Shown here in pieces: positions 32,662 to 53,474 of a stretch of 64,000 nt of DNA. Each line of letters starts with the position of its first letter. The stretch's first letter is position 1. The stretch is from NCBI RefSeq assembly GCF_947241125.1, contig NZ_OX365700.1:62001-126000 (forward strand). The letters are read 5' to 3'. The notes below the pieces were generated by a model. It did not search any database, was not told the DNA's origin, and saw only the letters and a list, made by a program, of their open reading frames with translations. Source of the DNA: Nitrospira tepida. GTDB lineage: Bacteria > Nitrospirota > Nitrospiria > Nitrospirales > Nitrospiraceae. The position numbers were made by a program, and so were the translations under genes.

Positions 32662-34611
32662 TCATGACCGCCCGACAGGGGACGTTGTCAGGTTTGGGCT
32701 CGATGCCGCCGCTTTTGTGACCGGTTGTTTCTCTCCCAACGACGCCAACCAGAACACGAACAGGATACTGATCCAGAAGAACAGCACGTTGAACGAGATC
32801 ATGTTGGCCGCGAACCCGACCGTATGGGTGTAGGCCCAGGGGGAGTTGTCGCGCATGATCTCGTTGACATGCCAGAACAGGCGCACCGACGAGCGGATAT
32901 AGCCCATCAGCGCCATCATCCAGGTAAACTCCGTCGCGAGCATCACCAACGCATATTGCGAGCGCGCCGTCATCTTCCCCCATTCGACGGCGCCTTGCCG
33001 CGTGGCGCCCTTGAGCATGGCCAGATTGAGGGCGGTCATGAGCAGCAGGCACGACAAGGTCGTCGCGACCTGGGGCACCGAGAGCCCGACCCGGACGTTG
33101 GCCGGAATGTAATAGCCGTAGACGGCCAACCACACGATGTTCGCATAGGCCAGGGCAAAGAACACGCCCATGAAGATGTTGCCGAATTTCCGCCACGACA
33201 CGGCAGCGACGAGATTGCCCCGCTGATACCAGATAAAACTCAACACCGTCGTGACGATCATCACATTGATGCCGCCGTTCTTGGCGGACATCACGCCGTA
33301 ATTCCCCAGCACCGGATGCTGCTGGCCACCCATCGCCTTCAATTCCGCCGGCGTCATCACCATGGTGTGGGGGGTGATGAACACCAGAAAACCGGCGAAC
33401 ATGATGAAGACCAGATACTTCACGTATCGCAGATAGCGTTCGGCCCCGGGCATCCGGCCGAGGCATTGCCAGAGATAATAGGTGGTGGTGAGGAACAACG
33501 CTCCGATCATGGTGGCCTGGATGATGAACAACCAGGCCAGCAATCCTCCCATGAGCGTGATCCCCATCTGCTGGCGATAGGCGTAGACCTCCCGCATCAA
33601 CCAGTACCCCGCGAACGGCAGCGGAATCAGGAAGAGGACGGCGATGAACATGGCCACGTAGCCCATCCAATCATAATGCGCGCGTTCCTCTTGCGTGCGC
33701 GCCGAGAGAAACCGATAGGCGGCATAGGCCGCCACCACGCTCCCGCCGAAGGCCATGTTCCCGAGGATGCGATGCAGGTTCAGCGGATTCCAGAGCGCCG
33801 TATGGATGACGTGCCAGATGTTGCCCAGGTACCGGCCCTGCTCATCGACGCCAGCCGGCGACATCATGAAGGCGATCCACGAGTTCGCCAGGAACATCAG
33901 GGCCGTGCCGATCGTGTTCAACATCACCGACATGCTGAGGTGCACCCACTTGAGGAACCCGGTCTTCATCTTGTTCCATCCGTAATAGTAGATGTAGAGG
34001 GTGCCGCTCTCCGCCACGAACAACAGGGCATAGAGGTGCATCACCGGCCGAAAGATGCCGGAGAGATAGCCGAAGAAGGTCGGATACAGCGTCAAGAACG
34101 TGAACAGCAGGATGCCGCCGAGGATGGCGGTCAAGGAGTAGGCGGTCAGGCTGATCTTCACAAAATCGTAGGCCAGCCGGTCGTAGCGCTCCCCGAGGGA
34201 CCGGTCCTTCGTCACGATTCCGAGAAACTCGATGATCATGCAGAAGATCGGCACTGCGAGCACGAAGCTGCCGTAATAGAGATGCTGTTGATTGGCGAAC
34301 CAGATCAAGATCCGACTCTCGAAGTTGTAGCGCGGATAATGGATCTGGTCGTTGCTGGTCGCGGGAGCGGGCGGGCCGCTCACCACGCCTTCCGTTTTGT
34401 AATACACGTCGCGGGCGGTTTCGGGTCGCATGCTTGGATCGATCTCGGCCTGTCCGGCCGGTTCGGACGGCGGATCGGGAGCTTCCGCGGACGACGCCGA
34501 TGCCGCCAGCAAGCAGCCGGACAGCAAGATCGTGACCGCGGACATCGCGAGGGACAGCAGACATGCGGTACGAAGCGCACACGGTGCTCGCAGTATATCC
34601 GTCCTGTTCAT
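32662..34611 (-). CDS. Cytochrome bd-like oxidase subunit (Nitrospira-type)
   Basis: From the ATG at 34611 (GAGGAGG site) the protein is 649 residues. The N-terminus carries a possible lipobox LLSGC (Cys33), then a proline-rich linker, then about 13 membrane helices, for example HLYYGSFVLAVPIFCMIIEFLGIV. Several helices resemble CydA, including YRFLSARTQEE and the FAGYWLMREVYAY region. It fits the long cytochrome bd-like proteins proposed as terminal oxidases in Nitrospira. Conserved histidines are present, but haem ligands are not assigned here. Its start overlaps the stop of a 47-residue membrane protein gene (ATGA at 34608-34611). Confidence 0.78.
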   Translation of the reverse strand: MNRTDILRAPCALRTACLLSLAMSAVTILLSGCLLAASASSAEAPDPPSEPAGQAEIDPSMRPETARDVYYKTEGVVSGPPAPATSNDQIHYPRYNFESRILIWFANQQHLYYGSFVLAVPIFCMIIEFLGIVTKDRSLGERYDRLAYDFVKISLTAYSLTAILGGILLFTFLTLYPTFFGYLSGIFRPVMHLYALLFVAESGTLYIYYYGWNKMKTGFLKWVHLSMSVMLNTIGTALMFLANSWIAFMMSPAGVDEQGRYLGNIWHVIHTALWNPLNLHRILGNMAFGGSVVAAYAAYRFLSARTQEERAHYDWMGYVAMFIAVLFLIPLPFAGYWLMREVYAYRQQMGITLMGGLLAWLFIIQATMIGALFLTTTYYLWQCLGRMPGAERYLRYVKYLVFIMFAGFLVFITPHTMVMTPAELKAMGGQQHPVLGNYGVMSAKNGGINVMIVTTVLSFIWYQRGNLVAAVSWRKFGNIFMGVFFALAYANIVWLAVYGYYIPANVRVGLSVPQVATTLSCLLLMTALNLAMLKGATRQGAVEWGKMTARSQYALVMLATEFTWMMALMGYIRSSVRLFWHVNEIMRDNSPWAYTHTVGFAANMISFNVLFFWISILFVFWLASLGEKQPVTKAAASSPNLTTSPVGRS

Positions 34612-34751
34612 GGCGTCCTCCTCTGTCGCCAGATCCTCTCGATGGCAGGGGTCCGCTTTAACGGCGGAACCACGAGCCAGATATTCGTTCCGGCAAACAC
34701 AAACGCACCGACCACACCGAGCAACAACAGTCCCATATCCAATTCCGTCAT
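34608..34751 (-). CDS. 47-residue single-helix membrane protein before the bd-like gene
   Basis: An ATG at 34751 with a perfect AAGGAGGTG site opens a 47-codon frame. One membrane helix (LLLLGVVGAFVFAGTNIWLVV) is followed by a basic tail (RIWRQRR). Four-base overlap with the oxidase gene implies translational coupling. Small helices such as CydX stabilise canonical bd oxidases, so a CydX-like role is a reasonable inference, though no sequence similarity to CydX is claimed. Confidence 0.75.
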   Translation of the reverse strand: MTELDMGLLLLGVVGAFVFAGTNIWLVVPPLKRTPAIERIWRQRRTP

Positions 34752-35162: not shown

Positions 35163-35189
35163 TTCATCCTCTGTTCGGATCTTGTTCAT
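35163..35189 (+). promoter_or_regulatory. OmpR-type direct repeats, degenerate centre
   Basis: TTCAT at 35163, TTCGG at 35174 and TTCAT at 35185 are spaced by exactly 11 bp. The site is 134 bp upstream of the small membrane protein gene at 35323 and shares orientation with the other sites relative to their genes. Confidence 0.4.
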
Positions 35190-35322
35190 CTCGCCTCGGT
35201 ATCCTGCGCTCAGGAAGAAGGTGTTGTCGTGGGAGGCTCGTAGGCCACAATTGCGGTTGTCTCCGTCCCGCTCCGTTAAAGCCAGCGCCGGATTCGTGGC
35301 CCGAAAGGAGGGAATATTGATC

Positions 35323-35454
35323 ATGCCCTATGCCGAGGTGGCGCTGCTGCTCGTGACGGCGTTCTGGGGCGTGGCGCTCTGGCGCGCCTATACAGATGAG
35401 AGGCCGTATTATCCGACTGTGCCTCGTTCGGAGAACAAGCGGAAGGCGGACTGA
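35323..35454 (+). CDS. 43-residue single-helix membrane protein
   Basis: The ATG at 35323 follows GGAGG. The product MPYAEVALLLVTAFWGVALW forms one membrane helix, and a tyrosine-, proline- and lysine-rich tail follows (DERPYYPTVPRSENKRK). The helix-then-charged-tail form recalls the tiny proteins near 51-53 kb. Family unknown. An OmpR-type site lies upstream. Confidence 0.65.
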   Translation: MPYAEVALLLVTAFWGVALWRAYTDERPYYPTVPRSENKRKAD

Positions 35455-35668: not shown

Positions 35669-35764
35669 TTACGACGGCTTCTCGTCCCGATATGAAGCGA
35701 CCATTGCGATCGCCCATGTCAGGAACATCAACGCACCTAAAGCCTACGCCGGATAAATTGGCAC
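35669..35764 (-). pseudogene. Small membrane protein frame with an in-frame TAG
   Basis: A GTG at 35762-35764 after GGGAGGA opens VPIYPA, then a TAG (35744-35746), then ALGALMFLTWAIAMVASYRDEKPS to a TAA at 35669. The part after the stop is a convincing membrane helix with a charged tail, like the other tiny proteins. An OmpR-type site at 35903-35929 lies upstream in the expected orientation. Either the start has been lost, or an internal start (ATG at 35728) is used. Amber readthrough is possible but unsupported. Confidence 0.35.
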
Positions 35765-35838
35765 TCCTCCCTTTTCCATTGGCAACCCTCCTTTTCCTTT
35801 GTCGCAATGTTCTCTTCAGTCCATAGCACCCCGAAGGC

Positions 35839-35902: not shown

Positions 35903-35929
35903 ATGAACCGGGAATGAAGCCCTCGTGAA
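35903..35929 (-). promoter_or_regulatory. OmpR-type triple direct repeat
   Basis: ATGAA at 35903 and 35914 and GTGAA at 35925 are spaced by 11 bp. Read on the minus strand they are TTCAT/TTCAC boxes upstream of the small interrupted ORF ending at 35669. Confidence 0.5.
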
Positions 35930-36504: not shown

Positions 36505-37203
36505 TCAGGATCCGTAGAATTCCTTTCGCATCCGTTCCATGCGCGTTCTCGCGCATTCGTTCAACCGTTCGTCCACTGCCTCCCAGTGAACGTTCGAGAA
36601 GAAGGTCTCGACGTACGTCCGCCGTTCCGACGGCGCGTAGTCGAGCAGGAACGCATGTTCCCACAGATCCAGCACGAGCAAGGGCACGAAGCCGGCGACG
36701 GTTCCGACCTCATGCGAGCTGATCCAATGGTTCGACAATCGCCCCGTCATCGGATCGTAATAGCAGATGGTCCACCCTACCCCGCGCATCGAGGCCGTGG
36801 CGACGAAATCGGTTTTCCAAACGTCATAGGACCCGAAGCTGGCTTCGGCCGCCCGTAAGAACGACGAGGAACGATCCGGATCGCCCGTCCCCTGCCGAAT
36901 GAGATTGCCGAAATAATATTCGTGCAAGACCATCCCGTTGTATTCGAATCCGAGGCGGCGGGTCAGTTCCGAGAACAACGGCATGTCATCCTGAGCGACA
37001 GGGCCGTCCGTCAGAAACGCGCGAATCCGTTCGCTGAGGCGATTCGCCTCACGGACGTACCCGTGATAGAGCGACAAATGCAGCTCCATGGTCCGTTCCG
37101 ACATACCGTTGAGGCCGCCGAGATCGAACGGCTTGGCTTGATAGGGAAGCGTGGCAATTATGGTCACTACCTCCTTCTTGATTGACCGACTCGAATATCT
37201 CAT
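36505..37203 (-). CDS. Iron/manganese superoxide dismutase
   Basis: A Fe/Mn-SOD of 232 residues from the ATG at 37203. It has the N-terminal TLPYQAKPFDLGGLNGMSERTME region and the metal-ligand segments LHLSLYHGYV, NGMVLHEYYFGNL and VLDLWEHAFLLDYAP (Asp and His of DLWEH). The start is uncertain: a ribosome-like AAGGAGG is inside the frame near 37175, so the protein may begin at a GTG at 37167 just before TIIATLPY. No signal peptide is obvious. It dismutates superoxide, and the metal is not decided by the visible motifs. Confidence 0.9.
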   Translation of the reverse strand: MRYSSRSIKKEVVTIIATLPYQAKPFDLGGLNGMSERTMELHLSLYHGYVREANRLSERIRAFLTDGPVAQDDMPLFSELTRRLGFEYNGMVLHEYYFGNLIRQGTGDPDRSSSFLRAAEASFGSYDVWKTDFVATASMRGVGWTICYYDPMTGRLSNHWISSHEVGTVAGFVPLLVLDLWEHAFLLDYAPSERRTYVETFFSNVHWEAVDERLNECARTRMERMRKEFYGS

Positions 37204-37214
37204 GCTAGCGCCGC

Positions 37215-38156
37215 TCACCCCGCGTGAAGCAGTTCAGGCGCCTCCTCCGCGAAGGTCGGTTGTTTGCCGATCTTGTCGAGCGTCTCCGTGATCCTTGTCG
37301 GGTTCCCCCAGTCGCTCCACAGGACCCCCCGCATCTCCATGACCGCCAGCCGGTCCGGTCTGCGCTGCAGGAGATGCGAGGAGAAGTTCCTCCGCGGCAT
37401 GGTTTCATAGATGGCGGAGAGCACCTTTGGCTCATCGGTTGTGTCGATGGCGCGTGTCAAGCGATCGAAGAGGCCCATCACTTCCGGGAAACAGTCCCGC
37501 CCGAGATCCCAGAGCTGTTTGCCTCCGGCCGCCAGCACCATCGTGTTCCAAAGGCCGCCGGCGTCCTTGGCCCGTCGTGCGGCCACCTCATCGGGTTTTT
37601 CGACGAAGCCGTCCACCGCTAAGATGGGAGCGTCCCCCGTCCAGCCGAGAAACCGGCCGGGACGAATCCATCCGTACTCCAATTCCAGGGAATCCGGCCT
37701 TGCGGCCAGGAGGACGGGCCGTCCCCCGAGCAGCTCGCTTCCCCGCGCCGCATGTTCCACCGCCGAGACAAACCGGTCTTTCGGATAGATGAAATGATCC
37801 GAGGGATAGACCGCCACGCTGGCGCCGGGATCGCGCGCCAGGATGTAGGCGAGCGGGAGAAAGATCCCGGCCGCCGTGTCCCGATTCTCGGGCTGCAACA
37901 ATACGATGCCTACCGGCCTCCCATCGAGCTGGTGCCAGACCTCCGGTTGATGGTGCCGAGCCGCCACCACGACCACTCGCTCCCAGGGCGTGAGCAGGGA
38001 CGCGCGGTCGAGCGTGTGCTGGAACATGGAGCGGGTCCCGACGAAGGCGCAGTATTGCTTCGGCTTGGCCGATCCCAGCCATCGCCGGATGAATGCGCTC
38101 GTCCGGACTCCGTCCCCTCCCGCCAATACAATCGACCACAAGTGCCCTCGTGTCAT
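37215..38156 (-). CDS. Sugar-phosphate nucleotidyltransferase (mannose-1-phosphate guanylyltransferase-like)
   Basis: From the ATG at 38156 (AGGAGAAGGAG site) the protein is 313 residues. It has the nucleotidyltransferase start WSIVLAGGDGVR, the PKQYCAF sugar-nucleotide signature, and YPSDHFIYPKDRFV and VDGFVEKPDEVAAR segments typical of ManC-type enzymes. It is shorter than ManC and lacks the isomerase domain. It would make a nucleotide sugar for surface polysaccharide. A triple OmpR-type box lies 75-100 bp upstream. Confidence 0.85.
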   Translation of the reverse strand: MTRGHLWSIVLAGGDGVRTSAFIRRWLGSAKPKQYCAFVGTRSMFQHTLDRASLLTPWERVVVVAARHHQPEVWHQLDGRPVGIVLLQPENRDTAAGIFLPLAYILARDPGASVAVYPSDHFIYPKDRFVSAVEHAARGSELLGGRPVLLAARPDSLELEYGWIRPGRFLGWTGDAPILAVDGFVEKPDEVAARRAKDAGGLWNTMVLAAGGKQLWDLGRDCFPEVMGLFDRLTRAIDTTDEPKVLSAIYETMPRRNFSSHLLQRRPDRLAVMEMRGVLWSDWGNPTRITETLDKIGKQPTFAEEAPELLHAG

Positions 38157-38229
38157 CTCCTTCTCCTTTCGGTCGTCCAGTTCACTGACCTCGTCGGCTC
38201 TTGTCTTGAAAGGACTGTACGGTCGGAAG

Positions 38230-38256
38230 ATGAGAAGCCGATGAACGGACCATGAA
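38230..38256 (-). promoter_or_regulatory. OmpR-type triple direct repeat
   Basis: ATGAG at 38230, ATGAA at 38241 and ATGAA at 38252, exactly 11 bp apart. On the minus strand these are TTCAT boxes 75 bp before the nucleotidyltransferase start. Confidence 0.6.
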
Positions 38257-49037: not shown

Positions 49038-50462
49038 TTAACTCTTCGGGATCGGCAGCCAGAGGGTAAAGACGGAGCCTGTGCCGACCTGGCTCTCGAC
49101 CGTGATGCGCCCGCCGTGGGCTTCGATGATTTCCTTCACGATCGGCAGGCCCAGGCCCGTGCCGCCGGAATCCCGAGCCCTGGCCCGGTCGGTGCGATAG
49201 AACCGCTCGAAGAGGTGCGGCAGTTGATCGGGTTCGATCCCCTGGCCCGTATCTTCCACGGTGATGCAGACCTGCGATTCTCGGATTCCCAGTCTGACCG
49301 TGACGCGCCCGCCCGGCTCCGTGTAGCGGAGGGCATTGTGCAGCAGATTGATCACGGCCTGTTTGAGCCACCGGGGGTCGCCTTGGATGGAAGGAACCGG
49401 ATCGGCCTGAAGCGTCAACCGGAGCTTGTGGTCGTCGGCCAGGACCGCCAGCTCATCGACCAGTTCCCGGAGCAACGGCTCCAGCGCCAGCGGGGCCGGC
49501 TGTACTAAAGAATGGTCTCCGCTCAGACGGGCGAGGGTCAAGAGCGACCGTGTCAGGCTGACCAACCGTTGGACTTCCTCCCAATTGTTCAGCAAGGCCT
49601 CGCGATATTCCTCCGCCGTCCGCGCCTTCTGGAGCACCACTTCGATGTTGCCCTGCAGGACCGTCAACGGGGTTTGCATCTCGTGCGCCGCATGGTCCAC
49701 GAAACGCCGCTGGCCCTCGAAGACCTTTTGCAATCGGTCCAGCATGGCGTTGAAGGCCTGCGCCAAGCGATGGAACTCCTGATACGGAGCATCCACGTTC
49801 AATCGGGTTTGGAGCGCGGAACCGGAGACGGTCTCCGTCGTGGCGCTGAGGACCTCGATGGGTCCCAAGACCTTTCGCGCCAACCAACTACTGCCGAACC
49901 AGGCGACGGCCATCATGGCCGCGGACACGATCGCCAGCAAACCCATCAGATTGCGGAGCGCCCGTTGGGAGAATCCGAGGGAAACCTCGGCTTGGAGGAT
50001 GTACCGGACTTCTCCCTGTGAGGGAATCGGGAGCGACAGGCGCCGCACGGGTGGACCGTTGACCGTGGAAACGGTGTCGTAGACGGGATGTCCGCGCCGG
50101 ACCCGTTCGAGCAACGGGCCGCTCACCGGCGGACGGGGTACGACGTTGGAACCTTGCCAGACGATCCGGCCATCGGGAGAGAGGACGACGATCGAGTGCG
50201 CCGTTTCGCGCAGTTCGTGCTGCGCCTCGTCAGCCCCCGTCTCCTGAGCCGGAACGAGGTCCTGTTCCCGGCTGCCGCTCAGGAGATCCGGCCGTTGCTC
50301 GATGAGGGTGGCCAGCGTCTGGGCCAGCCCCAGGAGCCTGGCGTTGGCATAGCGCTCAAGCAGGACCTCGAATCCCCCATAGACCAGCGCGCTGAAGATC
50401 GCGAGGAGGACCAGGATCAGCGCCAAGGCCCAGGCACGGATCAGGTTCCGAAAGGAGGTCAT
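49038..50462 (-). CDS. Sensor histidine kinase of an OmpR-type pair
   Basis: A 474-residue kinase from the ATG at 50462. Two membrane helices (12-34 and about 172-192) bracket a periplasmic sensor of about 140 residues. A HAMP segment, H-box DHAAHEMQTPLTVL with His260, and an ATPase domain with LLHNALRYTEPGG and GGTGLGLPIVKEI follow. The form resembles CusS/heavy-metal sensors. It overlaps the regulator stop by four bases. Input signal unknown; copper is a guess from the neighbours. Confidence 0.93.
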   Translation of the reverse strand: MTSFRNLIRAWALALILVLLAIFSALVYGGFEVLLERYANARLLGLAQTLATLIEQRPDLLSGSREQDLVPAQETGADEAQHELRETAHSIVVLSPDGRIVWQGSNVVPRPPVSGPLLERVRRGHPVYDTVSTVNGPPVRRLSLPIPSQGEVRYILQAEVSLGFSQRALRNLMGLLAIVSAAMMAVAWFGSSWLARKVLGPIEVLSATTETVSGSALQTRLNVDAPYQEFHRLAQAFNAMLDRLQKVFEGQRRFVDHAAHEMQTPLTVLQGNIEVVLQKARTAEEYREALLNNWEEVQRLVSLTRSLLTLARLSGDHSLVQPAPLALEPLLRELVDELAVLADDHKLRLTLQADPVPSIQGDPRWLKQAVINLLHNALRYTEPGGRVTVRLGIRESQVCITVEDTGQGIEPDQLPHLFERFYRTDRARARDSGGTGLGLPIVKEIIEAHGGRITVESQVGTGSVFTLWLPIPKS

Positions 50463-51139
50463 GCCTCCTCCGGCGTCTCCAACATGTAGCCGGCCCCTCG
50501 CACGGTCGTAATCAGCGGCGGCGAGAAGTCGCGGTCGATCTTGGCGCGCAGGGCTCGAATGTGCGCGTCCACGATATTGGTCATGGGATCGTAGCTGATG
50601 TCCCACACGTGCTCGATGATCGCGGTCCTCGTCAAGACGCGGTTCTTGTTCCGGAGGAGAAAGTCCAGGATCGCGTATTCCTTGTTGGTCAGCGCGATCT
50701 CCTTGCCGGCGCGCCAGACCCGGTGGGAGGCAGGATCAAGCTCCAAATCCGCCGCCTTCAAGCGCGTGGGGGTGTGGGGACCGCCTCGACGGAGGAGGGC
50801 CCGCACCCGGGCCAACAGCTCCGCGAAGGCGAAGGGTTTGGTCAAGTAATCGTCGGCGCCGCTGTCGAGCCCCGCCACCTTGTCTTGCACGGAATCCTGC
50901 GCCGTGAGGAGGAGAATCGGAGTCCGCCCTCCCTTAGCCCGGAACCGGCGGCAAAGCGTCAAGCCGTCCAACTTGGGCAGGAGAATGTCCACGATGAGGA
51001 GGTCGTAATCATTCTGGCCGGCGAGGTCGAGCCCTTCTTCGCCATCGCCGGCCCAGTCCACGGCATAACGCTCTTCACGGAGGCCCTTCTGCACGAACTG
51101 GGCGAGATTGGCGTCGTCTTCGACAAGCAAGATTCGCAT
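50459..51139 (-). CDS. OmpR/PhoB-family response regulator
   Basis: A 226-residue regulator from the ATG at 51139: receiver with EDD acidic triad (residues 7-9), phospho-acceptor Asp51 in LLIVDILLPKLDG and Lys in LTKPFAFAELL; then a winged helix (LELDPASHRVWRAGKEIALTNKEYAILDFLLRNKNRVLTRTAI). It fits the CopR/CusR group. It is the best candidate for binding the 11-bp-spaced TTCAT boxes found near tiny membrane protein genes, several of which are within 2 kb. Confidence 0.94.
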   Translation of the reverse strand: MRILLVEDDANLAQFVQKGLREERYAVDWAGDGEEGLDLAGQNDYDLLIVDILLPKLDGLTLCRRFRAKGGRTPILLLTAQDSVQDKVAGLDSGADDYLTKPFAFAELLARVRALLRRGGPHTPTRLKAADLELDPASHRVWRAGKEIALTNKEYAILDFLLRNKNRVLTRTAIIEHVWDISYDPMTNIVDAHIRALRAKIDRDFSPPLITTVRGAGYMLETPEEA

Positions 51140-51286: not shown

Positions 51287-51376
51287 TTAGGCAATGATGG
51301 ACAGGCCCCACATGATGAGCAGCGCCAACCCCAGCATGGTGACGATGAGTATGATGGTGGCCAGGATTGTAGACAT
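51287..51376 (-). CDS. 29-residue single-helix membrane protein
   Basis: ATG at 51376 after a perfect AAGGAGG. The product MSTILATIILIVTMLGLALL plus IMWGLSIIA is one hydrophobic helix. It lies just upstream of the two-component genes on the same strand. Its similarity in pattern to the next ORF (both end WGxS-II/LL-A) suggests the two are paralogues. Confidence 0.65.
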   Translation of the reverse strand: MSTILATIILIVTMLGLALLIMWGLSIIA

Positions 51377-51437
51377 GGTTCTCGCCTCCTTCCTTGGACA
51401 GTTGCATCCTTTAAACGGCCCGCGGCCCGTTCCGTTT

Positions 51438-51530
51438 TCATGCCAGCAACGACATGCCCCACCAGACCAACGCCGCCATCGCAACCAGCAGCAGCGTGAG
51501 GAGAACTGCCGGGCCAAATATGTCAGACAT
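51438..51530 (-). CDS. 30-residue single-helix membrane protein
   Basis: ATG at 51530 after GAGGT. MSDIFGPAVLLTLLLVAMAA followed by LVWWGMSLLA forms one helix. It resembles the neighbouring 29-residue ORF in ending and topology. An OmpR-type triple box at 51609-51635 lies 79 bp upstream. Confidence 0.65.
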   Translation of the reverse strand: MSDIFGPAVLLTLLLVAMAALVWWGMSLLA

Positions 51531-51608
51531 GGGCTTACCTCACGATCCGTATCTTGCGGTCATTCCGTTGCGTCGCATCATCCGATGCCCACAAGCTAAC
51601 GGCGCGAC

Positions 51609-51635
51609 ATGAACCGCGCGTGAATGGATCGTGAA
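51609..51635 (-). promoter_or_regulatory. OmpR-type triple direct repeat
   Basis: ATGAA at 51609, GTGAA at 51620 and GTGAA at 51631, 11 bp apart. On the minus strand the boxes precede the 30-residue membrane protein gene. Confidence 0.65.
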
Positions 51636-51679
51636 GAAATGTTCATGATCACAGCGGGAGGGAGAGTGCGAAGTGAGAA

Positions 51680-51714
51680 ATGACGAATGACGAATGACGA
51701 ATGACGAATGACGA
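51680..51714. repeat. 7-bp tandem repeat ATGACGA x5
   Basis: Five perfect copies of ATGACGA lie between two divergent regulator sites. Related TGACGAATGAC-like strings occur in other intergenic places (5140-5160, 46690-46760, 48885-48990). The copy number may vary between strains. Confidence 0.85.
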
Positions 51715-51749
51715 AGAAGGACCCATGGACGGCGCAATCTGAGCGAGTC

Positions 51750-51776
51750 TTCATCCGTTCTTCATGAAACCTTCAT
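51750..51776 (+). promoter_or_regulatory. OmpR-type triple direct repeat
   Basis: TTCAT at 51750, 51761 and 51772, exactly 11 bp apart and all perfect. They end 38 bp before the ATG at 51814, close to where a -35 would lie (TTCTACCT follows), so the regulator would act as an activator here. Confidence 0.7.
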
Positions 51777-51813
51777 CCGGCGGTTCTACCTTGCAGACAG
51801 GAAAGGAGCGCTG

Positions 51814-51996
51814 ATGTCCCCGTTGATCACCATCTGGCTGTCCGCCCTCGGCACAGCCGTTCTGCTCATGGCGACGGTCTGGAAACTATGGCCATCGTGG
51901 TGCCGGCACCCTGGGAATGGCGTGACGGTCGCGGCGGGCGTCTCTCCTTCTCCGCCTCGCAGGCATTCTTCCAAGCAAGCCCCCTCGCGACCGTAA
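51814..51996 (+). CDS. 60-residue small membrane protein
   Basis: ATG at 51814 after AAAGGAG. An N-terminal helix (LITIWLSALGTAVLLMATVW) is followed by a polar, proline-rich tail (SPSPPRRHSSKQAPSRP). It lies directly under three perfect TTCAT boxes. Not recognised. The tail may be poorly conserved. Confidence 0.6.
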   Translation: MSPLITIWLSALGTAVLLMATVWKLWPSWCRHPGNGVTVAAGVSPSPPRRHSSKQAPSRP

Positions 51997-52088
51997 TTCC
52001 AAGCCCTGTGCTGATCGGCGAGCCCCGGTGTTTCGTCGCGCAGCCGGGGATATCGTTCTTCAATCTTTCGATCAAGGAGCATAACGCT

Positions 52089-52505
52089 ATGGAACAACGA
52101 GACATCTATATGACTGCCTTCGACCTGGAGCGATTGTCGGAACTCTTGCAGGTCGGGATCGTCTTCAATGGCAAGAACAGCGAGTACCTCAAGAGCCTGG
52201 AGCGGGAGTTGGACCGGGCGCATGTGGTGGACCCGAAAGCGATTCCCACGGACGTGGTGACCATGAACTCGCAGGTTCGCCTGCGGGACGTCGATACGGG
52301 TGAAGAGCGGGTCTACACCCTGGTGTTTCCCAGCCAAGCGAAGATCGAAGAAGGCAGGATTTCCGTGCTCGCGCCGATCGGCACCGCCATGTTGGGCTAT
52401 CGGGTGGGCGACACGGTCGAATGGCAGGTTCCGGCGGGGGTGAAGAAGGTCAGGATTGAAGCAGTGCTCTACCAGCCGGAAGCGGCCGGCGATTTCGACC
52501 GGTAA
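52089..52505 (+). CDS. rnk: Rnk/GreA-C-type nucleoside diphosphate kinase regulator
   Basis: A 138-residue protein from the ATG at 52089 (AAGGAG site). It has an N-terminal two-helix part (TAFDLERLSELLQVG, YLKSLERELDRAHVV) and a C-terminal GreA-like FKBP-fold domain (TMNSQVRLRDVDTGEERVYTLVFP, PIGTAMLGYRVGDTVEW). Rnk-type proteins bind RNA polymerase via the secondary channel. It is next to the tiny ORFs and possibly in the same stress response. Confidence 0.9.
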   Translation: MEQRDIYMTAFDLERLSELLQVGIVFNGKNSEYLKSLERELDRAHVVDPKAIPTDVVTMNSQVRLRDVDTGEERVYTLVFPSQAKIEEGRISVLAPIGTAMLGYRVGDTVEWQVPAGVKKVRIEAVLYQPEAAGDFDR

Positions 52506-52604
52506 TCACCGTCGTTTGCGGTTCTCCGCATACAGGGCGACTCCCAACATGCCCACGAAGAGCAGGAATAGTCCGGTCATGGCCAGCAGCATCGGGATCA
52601 TCAT
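52506..52604 (-). CDS. 32-residue single-helix membrane protein
   Basis: ATG at 52604 after AAGGAG. MMIPMLLAMTGLFLLFVGML then GVALYAENRKRR: one helix with a basic cytoplasmic end. Triple OmpR-type box 115 bp upstream (52719-52745). It converges with rnk; the stops touch. Confidence 0.65.
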   Translation of the reverse strand: MMIPMLLAMTGLFLLFVGMLGVALYAENRKRR

Positions 52605-52718
52605 AGTCACGGACTCCTTGCCTCATCCGTCGGAAGCCCGGCCGCCATCACCATCGAGAGGTTGCTGCGGACCGGACTCCGCTGCGCCGGAGTTCGGTCC
52701 TCATTCTAGCGGGGCCGG

Positions 52719-52745
52719 ATGAAGATTCCGTGAAACGCCCATGAA
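52719..52745 (-). promoter_or_regulatory. OmpR-type triple direct repeat
   Basis: ATGAA 52719, GTGAA 52730, ATGAA 52741, all 11 bp apart; TTCAT orientation toward the minus-strand ORF at 52604. Confidence 0.65.
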
Positions 52746-52771
52746 GATTGGAGGCTGAAAGATCATCGGTT

Positions 52772-52787
52772 CTTCACCGGCTCTTCA
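52772..52787 (+). promoter_or_regulatory. OmpR-type double direct repeat
   Basis: TTCAC at 52772 and TTCAT at 52783, 11 bp apart, oriented toward the plus-strand ORF at 52840. With the preceding site it makes a divergent control region. Confidence 0.5.
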
Positions 52788-52839
52788 TGCTGCCTGCTTA
52801 CCTATGAAATGGAGGGGATGAAGAAAGGAGGAAGCCGTG

Positions 52840-52950
52840 ATGTTCATCATGGGGTTGTTGGCGTTGCTCATGCATCCAGCCGGCTTGATCCTCGCTGCCA
52901 TGGTCCTGATTGGGAAAGATCTGACGCGGCTCCTGCTCGGCGCGGACTGA
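52840..52950 (+). CDS. 36-residue single-helix membrane protein
   Basis: ATG at 52840 after AAAGGAGG. MFIMGLLALLMHPAGLILAA then MVLIGKDLTRLLLGAD: one helix of about 22 residues. OmpR-type boxes upstream and a strong terminator at 53014-53042 downstream make it a complete single-gene unit. Confidence 0.65.
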   Translation: MFIMGLLALLMHPAGLILAAMVLIGKDLTRLLLGAD

Positions 52951-53013
52951 CGTGAACCTGAAACGAGTCCGCGCCTTCTCTCGATGTCCCGACTCACATC
53001 CTCGATCCGATCT

Positions 53014-53042
53014 GGGAGGGCCTCCGACAGGGAGGCCTTCCC
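53014..53042 (+). terminator. Terminator hairpin
   Basis: GGGAGGGCCTCC (53014-53025) pairs with GGAGGCCTTCCC (53031-53042) with one G-T wobble and a short loop. It separates the small ORF at 52840 from the copper operon. Confidence 0.6.
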
Positions 53043-53070
53043 GACTGTAATAATCCGCCGCCGTTTCCGT

Positions 53071-53120
53071 CTGTAGTGGTGACAGCGCCTGTGATCAGGC
53101 GAAACAGCCACCACCTACAG
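53071..53120 (+). promoter_or_regulatory. Structured leader or operator before copZ
   Basis: Two nested stems: CTGTAG-TGGTG (53071-53081) with CACCA-C-CTACAG (53109-53120), and CGCCTG-TGAT-CAGGCG (53086-53101). The copZ ribosome site lies 4 bp downstream. It may be a metal-regulator operator or an RNA control element. Confidence 0.5.
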
Positions 53121-53133
53121 AGGGGAGAGTCCC

Positions 53134-53352
53134 ATGAACGAGATCACGTTACAGATCGAGGGGATGAGCTGCGGCCATTGCGTGGGTCAAATCCGAAGGG
53201 CCTTGGCGCGCGTGGAGGGTTTGCAGCATTGCGAGGTGAAAGTGGGAGAGGCCAGGGTGATTTACGATCCGAAGGTGAGCGAGCTCGGCGACATCGTCGA
53301 GGCCGTGAAGGAGGCGGGCTACGACGTTCGCCCAGCCGGGAGGGCCGCATGA
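53134..53352 (+). CDS. copZ: CopZ-like copper chaperone
   Basis: A 72-residue HMA-domain protein with the metal-binding motif GMSCGHC at residues 10-16 and the usual ferredoxin-like fold pattern ([24 protein letters not shown]). It would deliver Cu(I) to the ATPase encoded 107 bp downstream. Its stop overlaps the start of the 41-residue membrane protein gene. Confidence 0.92.
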
Positions 53353-53474
53353 GCGCCATCGAATGGCTGGTCATCCTCGGCGGAACCGCGGTCATCGCTT
53401 GGATCAACTGGTATTTCTTCCTGGCCCAAAGCCGGGAAGTCGCAAAGGAGGACTCCTCATGGAAACGGCGCTGA
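53349..53474 (+). CDS. 41-residue membrane protein between copZ and copA
   Basis: Starts inside the copZ stop (ATGA) and ends 15 bp inside cop[21 protein letters not shown] then [20 protein letters not shown]: one aromatic-rich helix with a charged tail. Overlaps on both sides argue for translational coupling in fixed ratio. It may be a helper subunit of the copper ATPase; this is inference. Confidence 0.75.

Follow-up and report, generated by a model that had tools for sequence, protein, structure and literature searches.

A predicted local regulon of membrane micro-proteins beside a two-component system in Nitrospira tepida

Background

The question raised by this locus is whether a group of very short ORFs, each with one predicted membrane helix, are real genes and, if so, which regulator controls them and what their products might do. 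The ORFs lie in the genome of Nitrospira tepida (4.73 Mb, a single contig), in a stretch of 64 kb that was analysed as a whole and is called the window below; all coordinates refer to it. An initial annotation had described five such ORFs as part of a presumed stress-responsive set of eight membrane micro-proteins. Two-component systems, and single micro-proteins under the control of such systems (MgrB, KdpF), are already known kinds. Neither the micro-protein families described here, nor the promoter signature, nor a regulon consisting mostly of micro-proteins was found in the literature that we searched (open-licence papers).

Results and discussion

The small ORFs and their neighbours

The cluster between 49 and 53.5 kb contains the following genes and ORFs:

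HK, 49038..50462, minus strand: sensor histidine kinase of the heavy-metal (CztS/SilS/CopS) type, 280.8 bits against TIGR01386 and thus below its curated cut-off of 292.55
RR, 50459..51139, minus strand: OmpR/PhoB-type response regulator, the presumed binder of the TTCAY box, 264.8 bits against TIGR01387 and thus below its curated cut-off of 279.2
S1, 51287..51376, minus strand: 29 aa, single helix, family A, MSTILATIILIVTMLGLALLIMWGLSIIA; Shine-Dalgarno (SD) sequence AAGGAGG; 3' of S2 on the same strand
S2, 51438..51530, minus strand: 30 aa, single helix, family A, MSDIFGPAVLLTLLLVAMAALVWWGMSLLA; box and -10 upstream
S3, 51814..51996, plus strand: 60 aa, one N-terminal helix; SD AAGGAG; box and -10 upstream
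Rnk-like protein of the GreA/GreB family, 52089..52505, plus strand: PF01272 (1.1e-26) and PF14760 (6.5e-11); second gene after the S3 promoter
S4, 52506..52604, minus strand: 32-34 aa, single helix, alternative start at 52610; SD AAGGAG; box with TAGAAT
S5, 52840..52950, plus strand: 36 aa, single helix, family B, motif HPAxL; SD AAGGAGG

CopZ, S6 and CopA also lie within this region. All five ORFs S1-S5 of the initial annotation were present, each preceded by an SD-like sequence (GAGGT in the case of S2) and each containing a single 17-residue stretch with a mean Kyte-Doolittle value above 2, in line with the one membrane helix that had been ascribed to them. The C-terminal half of S3 has a low-complexity appearance, and S4 is isolated and convergent with the Rnk-like gene. 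None of the five matched a family in Pfam or NCBIfam at the cut-off. The suggestion that the first two ORFs are paralogues held: S1 and S2 are 36% identical (shuffle p = 7e-4), and S1 matches the family A profile with an E-value of 3.7e-6.

Two other features of the intergenic regions were seen. A short tandem array of AATGACG units is located at 51675-51715, between the promoters of S2 and S3, and two stable hairpins are located between S5 and CopZ (53013-53043, z -3.5, and 53070-53121, z -5.5), the second of which is a long near-palindrome immediately 5' of copZ and perhaps a copper operator or attenuator.

A triple TTCAY box with a -10 element at fixed spacing

The box consists of three TTCAY repeats with a period of 11 bp. 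Its two-repeat form, TTCATN6TTCAT with at most one mismatch, has 12 matches in the window, where 2.5 are expected and none of 100 shuffles reached 12. The triple box with zero or one mismatch is present six times in the whole genome, every time within the window, and a reversed-pattern control gave no match at all. These six boxes precede S2, S3, S4, S5, a ManC-like gene and the relic of a further ORF (S9); a seventh box in the window, with two mismatches, is found upstream of S8. Within the cluster the boxes thus stand before exactly those four ORFs (S2, S3, S4 and S5) for which a regulator box had been claimed. S1 has no box of its own, and S2, upstream of it on the same strand, carries one.

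By aligning the flanks of distinct exact boxes from genomes of the family, we found that a -10 element (TAnnnT) starts exactly 10 nt past the last repeat in 92 of the 111 distinct boxes outside the window, where 4% would be expected, and that an inverted ATGAA half-site lies upstream in about half of the boxes (53/111 exact). In the window the TA of the -10 element stands at this spacing for six of the seven boxes (S2, S3, S4, S5, S8 and ManC), against one of the 18 two-mismatch boxes elsewhere in the genome. The boxes and -10 elements are:

Promoter of S2-S1(-RR-HK), 51593..51635, minus strand: triple TTCAY box 51609-51635 and TAGCTT 51593-51598, with the inverted ATGAA half-site upstream
Promoter of S3(-Rnk), 51750..51792, plus strand: triple box 51750-51776 and TACCTT 51787-51792
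Promoter of S4, 52703..52745, minus strand: triple box 52719-52745 and TAGAAT 52703-52708
Promoter of S5, 52762..52804, plus strand: triple box 52762-52788 (one mismatch) and TACCTA 52799-52804
Promoter of S8, 35163..35205, plus strand: two-mismatch box 35163-35189 and TATCCT 35200-35205, with an ATGAAGA half-site
Promoter of the ManC-like gene, 38214..38256, minus strand: box 38230-38256 (one mismatch) and TACAGT 38214-38219
Box of the S9 relic, 35903..35929, minus strand: -10 absent

All six detectable promoters with box and -10 are located inside 17.7 kb, and at five of them (S2 with S1, S3, S4, S5 and S8) the first gene encodes a micro-membrane protein, the ManC-like gene being first at the remaining one. 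A scan with the sigma-70 consensus found no complete promoter and no recognisable -35, as expected for activator-dependent promoters without a -35. The box is, as judged from its sequence context, a predicted promoter element with the activator-type layout of OmpR/PhoB-type regulators. Regulators of that family bind such repeats cooperatively and head-to-tail, and three or four repeats give tighter binding (PMC4832192). The PhoP box of Streptomyces (GTTCACCN4GTTCACC) and the pho box of E. coli resemble the TTCAY box in having 11-bp direct repeats with a similar core, close 5' of the -10. The TTCAY box differs from both in its three repeats, in the ATGAA half-site present in about half of the cases and in being unlinked to pst genes.

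Four tandem TTCAT repeats, i.e. two overlapping triples, were seen in the g18 genomes at the loci L118, L133, L134 and L161. In several g18 genomes this four-repeat box shares a contig with the main cluster, at a distance of some 80-90 kb, and in L133 and L161 it stands upstream of a conserved lipoprotein-like gene.

Box and kinase in the family

We surveyed 175 genomes of the family, belonging to 22 genera, for the box and the kinase. The exact box was found in 63 genomes (control matches: 0 in all) and an orthologue of HK (E<=1e-25) in 104; the five genera, out of 22, in which they occur are the same for both. The kinase is present in 58 of the 63 genomes with a box, which leaves five genomes that have the box and no kinase and 46 that have the kinase and no exact box. 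With genomes treated as independent, which they are not, the association has a Fisher p of 4e-12 over all genomes, 0.001 among those of g18 and 0.003 among those of g10. In 35 of the 58 genomes that have both, no more than 2.4 kb separate a box from the kinase.

A micro-membrane ORF (short, SD-led and hydrophobic) follows 31 of 113 exact boxes; on the opposite strand the count is 4 of 113, and random places give 2.2%. When one mismatch in the box was permitted and the -10 was required, 57 distinct micro-proteins (24 to 80 aa) were found behind box and -10; 31 of them are isolated, and for 26 a longer ORF in the same direction lies no more than 250 nt away. They vary by genus, often beside the same kinase: for instance, g6 has MDANWL...VYKKGQ and MTTIFFALLALTAVFGFMYK, and g10 has MMTVALIDALLFGGIFIFC, with a relative in g2. 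Further boxes are located upstream of genes that we read as encoding lipoproteins, carbonic-anhydrase-like, PepSY-like and glycosyltransferase-like proteins, so the micro-proteins are not the sole output. The output of the regulon is predicted to be envelope-directed, with micro-proteins as a large share of it and not the whole. The carbonic-anhydrase-like gene (identity again by reading) stands behind the same box at three g10 loci (L245, L246 and L255).

Conservation of the micro-proteins

Relatives of S1 and S2 (family A, motif WGxS) with an FWGxSLL core occur in about 20 g18 genomes, mostly in the order RR-HK-box-A-(C)-ManC-Usp-Rnk, where C is a protein of about 48 aa encoded 3' of A. The relatives of S2 adjoin the orthologous HK, and the RR in the syntenic loci is 71-73% identical to that of N. 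tepida. In g10, an A-like protein with LMWGMS follows the kinase. Weak tblastn matches of S2 inside long ORFs were discarded as generic helix similarity. Family B (S5, HPAxL) is encoded divergently, 5' of RR and behind the same box, in several g18 genomes, and S5 is 35-42% identical to these boxed ORFs (shuffle p 0.003). One genome has a truncated version of family A, and in several relatives family B is either degenerate or absent, which indicates that gains and losses occur.

The pN/pS ratio was 0.54 for family A (64 of 2000 neutral replicates were as low), 0.33 for family B (11 of 2000) and 0.43 for family C (3 of 2000), and in all three families the second codon positions are the most conserved. 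These ratios, moderately below 1, point with moderate strength to coding sequences in which amino-acid changes are fewer than silent ones. The check on frame conservation and codon positions proposed with the initial annotation therefore came out in favour of S1/S2 and S5, which have syntenic relatives under purifying selection, and did not extend to S3 and S4, for which a search of the 175 genomes gave noise-level matches, their own genus being represented by this one genome. For S3 and S4, the assignment as candidate genes is based on promoter, SD and helix.

A second group of boxes at 34-38 kb

The other promoters of the window belong to the following ORFs:

S8, 35323..35454, plus strand: 43 aa, single helix, related to the S9 family (shuffle p 3e-4 against S9); SD AAGGAGG
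S9 relic, 35669..35779, minus strand: MEKGGVPIYPA*ALGALMFLTWAIAMVASYRDEKPS, with an in-frame TAG at 35744-35746
Superoxide-dismutase-like ORF (identity by reading), 36505..37218, minus strand: overlaps the end of the ManC-like gene by 4 nt
ManC-like gene (mannose-1-phosphate guanylyltransferase-like by reading), 37215..38156, minus strand: box and -10 upstream

Intact relatives of S9 are found in L107 (MFDIGGMPMYPAVILAGLTLFAWIVVMVRSYMDETP) and L135, behind functional-looking boxes and beside A-like paralogues. With its in-frame TAG and a box that lacks its -10, S9 is, on this comparison, a presumptive decayed further member, absent from the earlier list. An orthologue of the ManC-like gene stands 3' of family A in relatives (48-52% identical, beside A in L061-L068), and the superoxide-dismutase-like ORF is probably co-transcribed with the ManC-like gene. 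A match of S8 to an MlaD-type protein was set aside as generic helix similarity. In L107 (G102:C14:4000-17000) we also observed a second micro-protein cluster, resembling the one at 35-38 kb in the window, with two boxes, two A-like paralogues, the intact S9 relative, a 72-aa single-helix protein and a ManC-like gene.

The proposed set of eight thus had to be revised: S1-S5 and S8 (with its two-mismatch box and -10) stay in it, and S6 (at 53349) and S7 (at 34608) were excluded because they have no box. S6 (53349-53474) is a single-helix ORF of 41 aa that overlaps the ends of CopZ and CopA, without a TTCAY box; it may be similar to the N-terminal helix found in membrane proteins of the cupredoxin type. 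S7 (34608-34751) is a single-helix ORF of 47 aa with a strong SD and no box; it extends over the 5' end of a bd-like oxidase gene and may encode a small subunit of an oxidase.

A probable local regulon of the neighbouring two-component system

The idea of a co-regulated set of membrane micro-proteins was borne out by the shared box and by the conservation of S1/S2 and S5 beside the same RR and HK in Nitrospira relatives. On the basis of the shared promoters with box and -10, the co-occurrence of the box with RR and HK and the purifying selection in families A and B, we consider it likely that these are real micro-protein genes that make up most of a local regulon under the neighbouring two-component system, a judgement from sequence that leaves aside any feedback on the kinase. 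Phosphorylated RR would bind the TTCAY repeats as a head-to-tail oligomer and activate S2-S1-RR-HK, S3-Rnk, S4, S5, S8 and ManC with the superoxide-dismutase-like ORF, of which S2-S1-RR-HK is probably one positively autoregulated unit. The products would be inner-membrane proteins that modulate larger proteins of the membrane.

The families that score highest for RR and HK are those of the CztR/SilR/CopR and CztS/SilS/CopS systems, and CopZ-CopA adjoin the cluster in N. tepida. The locus differs from such systems in its tandem TTCAY array and in the relatives, where it has ManC, Usp and Rnk and no metal pumps. The neighbouring copper genes are only a hint as to the signal of HK, and stress, suggested as the trigger in the initial annotation, is a conjecture. 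An AlphaFold model of HK (6 sequences) had a mean pLDDT of 51.8, with values below 50 in the sensor region.

For S1 and S2, the single most likely role is that of MgrB-like feedback modulators of the neighbouring kinase, a tentative proposal by analogy in which the contact with the kinase is hypothetical. MgrB feeds back on its kinase in the PhoQP system of E. coli (PMC2789325) and is likewise a small single-helix membrane protein under two-component control; by their promoter signature and co-location, S1 and S2 are also small single-helix proteins in the regulon of a kinase. They differ from it in length (29-36 aa for the micro-proteins here versus 47 aa) and in that there are several unrelated micro-proteins per genome, and no sequence relation is claimed. 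For S3, S4, S5 and S8, an action on other membrane enzymes or as effectors of envelope stress is more likely.

About as likely as kinase feedback for S1 and S2, and hence possible rather than probable, is a role of the micro-proteins as accessory subunits or assembly factors of different membrane enzymes (CydX-, KdpF- or CcoS-like) that are induced on need; this is compatible with the regulon and competes only with the feedback step. S8, less than 1 kb from the bd-like oxidase gene, would suit such a role, CydX-type oxidase subunits being of comparable size with a single helix, and so would the occurrence of unrelated micro-proteins in different genera. There is also the precedent of KdpF, a 30-aa single-helix transporter peptide that is controlled by KdpDE and able to contact the kinase (PMC3618439). 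However, S1-S5 are located outside oxidase operons, no transporter operon lies behind S1, S2 or S4, and no enzyme subunit is encoded next to S1, S2, S4 or family B; moreover, the occurrence of family A follows that of the kinase or of ManC/Usp/Rnk and not that of one enzyme. The Pfam and NCBIfam searches gave no match to the CydX, CydS or CcoS families.

It is unlikely that the boxes serve the larger downstream genes (RR-HK, Rnk, CopZ-CopA and ManC) and that the small ORFs are incidental or leader peptides. The same-strand order of S2-S1 and RR-HK, of S3 and Rnk and of S5 and CopZ would fit such an arrangement, as would the longer ORFs that follow 26 of the 57 micro-proteins of the family. Nevertheless, about half of the micro-proteins, among them S4, family B in relatives and many of those in g6, are isolated, which argues against mere leader peptides, as does the codon-level selection in families A, B and C, and the stable hairpin at 53013-53043 separates S5 from CopZ. 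The size of the micro-proteins (26-36 aa), their one helix and their regulated promoters would suit small hydrophobic stress toxins of the TisB/Hok kind, which depolarise the membrane, but we regard this as very unlikely, as no antitoxin RNA family was matched in the region (Rfam, 0 matches) and the helices of family A carry no charge and show a conserved WGxS motif instead of an amphipathic cationic face. Least probable of all, and rejected here, is a phosphate-starvation regulon with the box as its Pho box: the PhoP site of Streptomyces does share the 11-bp period and a near-identical core (PMC4832192; PMC9019756), but the pstS homologues of the genome (at 2.50 Mb and elsewhere) are far from all boxes, RR scores 264.8 bits as CztR/SilR/CopR versus 190.6 bits as PhoB, and the presence of the box follows this kinase.

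Returning to the local regulon, we put the chances as even that unrelated single-helix micro-proteins make up the main conserved output of this two-component system, the battery being replaced by different ones in each genus, and that the system serves as a micro-protein response dedicated to the Nitrospira membrane. There appears to be no earlier description of a compact regulon that has a different membrane micro-protein first at five of its six promoters and in which the architecture is conserved while the proteins turn over. Its signature (TTCAY triplet, 10 nt, TAnnnT) provides a search handle, in nitrite oxidisers, for micro-protein genes that are easily overlooked by annotation, and the purpose of regulated membrane micro-proteins becomes testable in one small circuit.

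Elsewhere in the window, at 18-29 kb, we observed a tight cluster in which many short exported paralogues end in cupredoxin-like HPEV or CPLHKGDAHAGG and which also contains two PAS-LuxR-like regulators.
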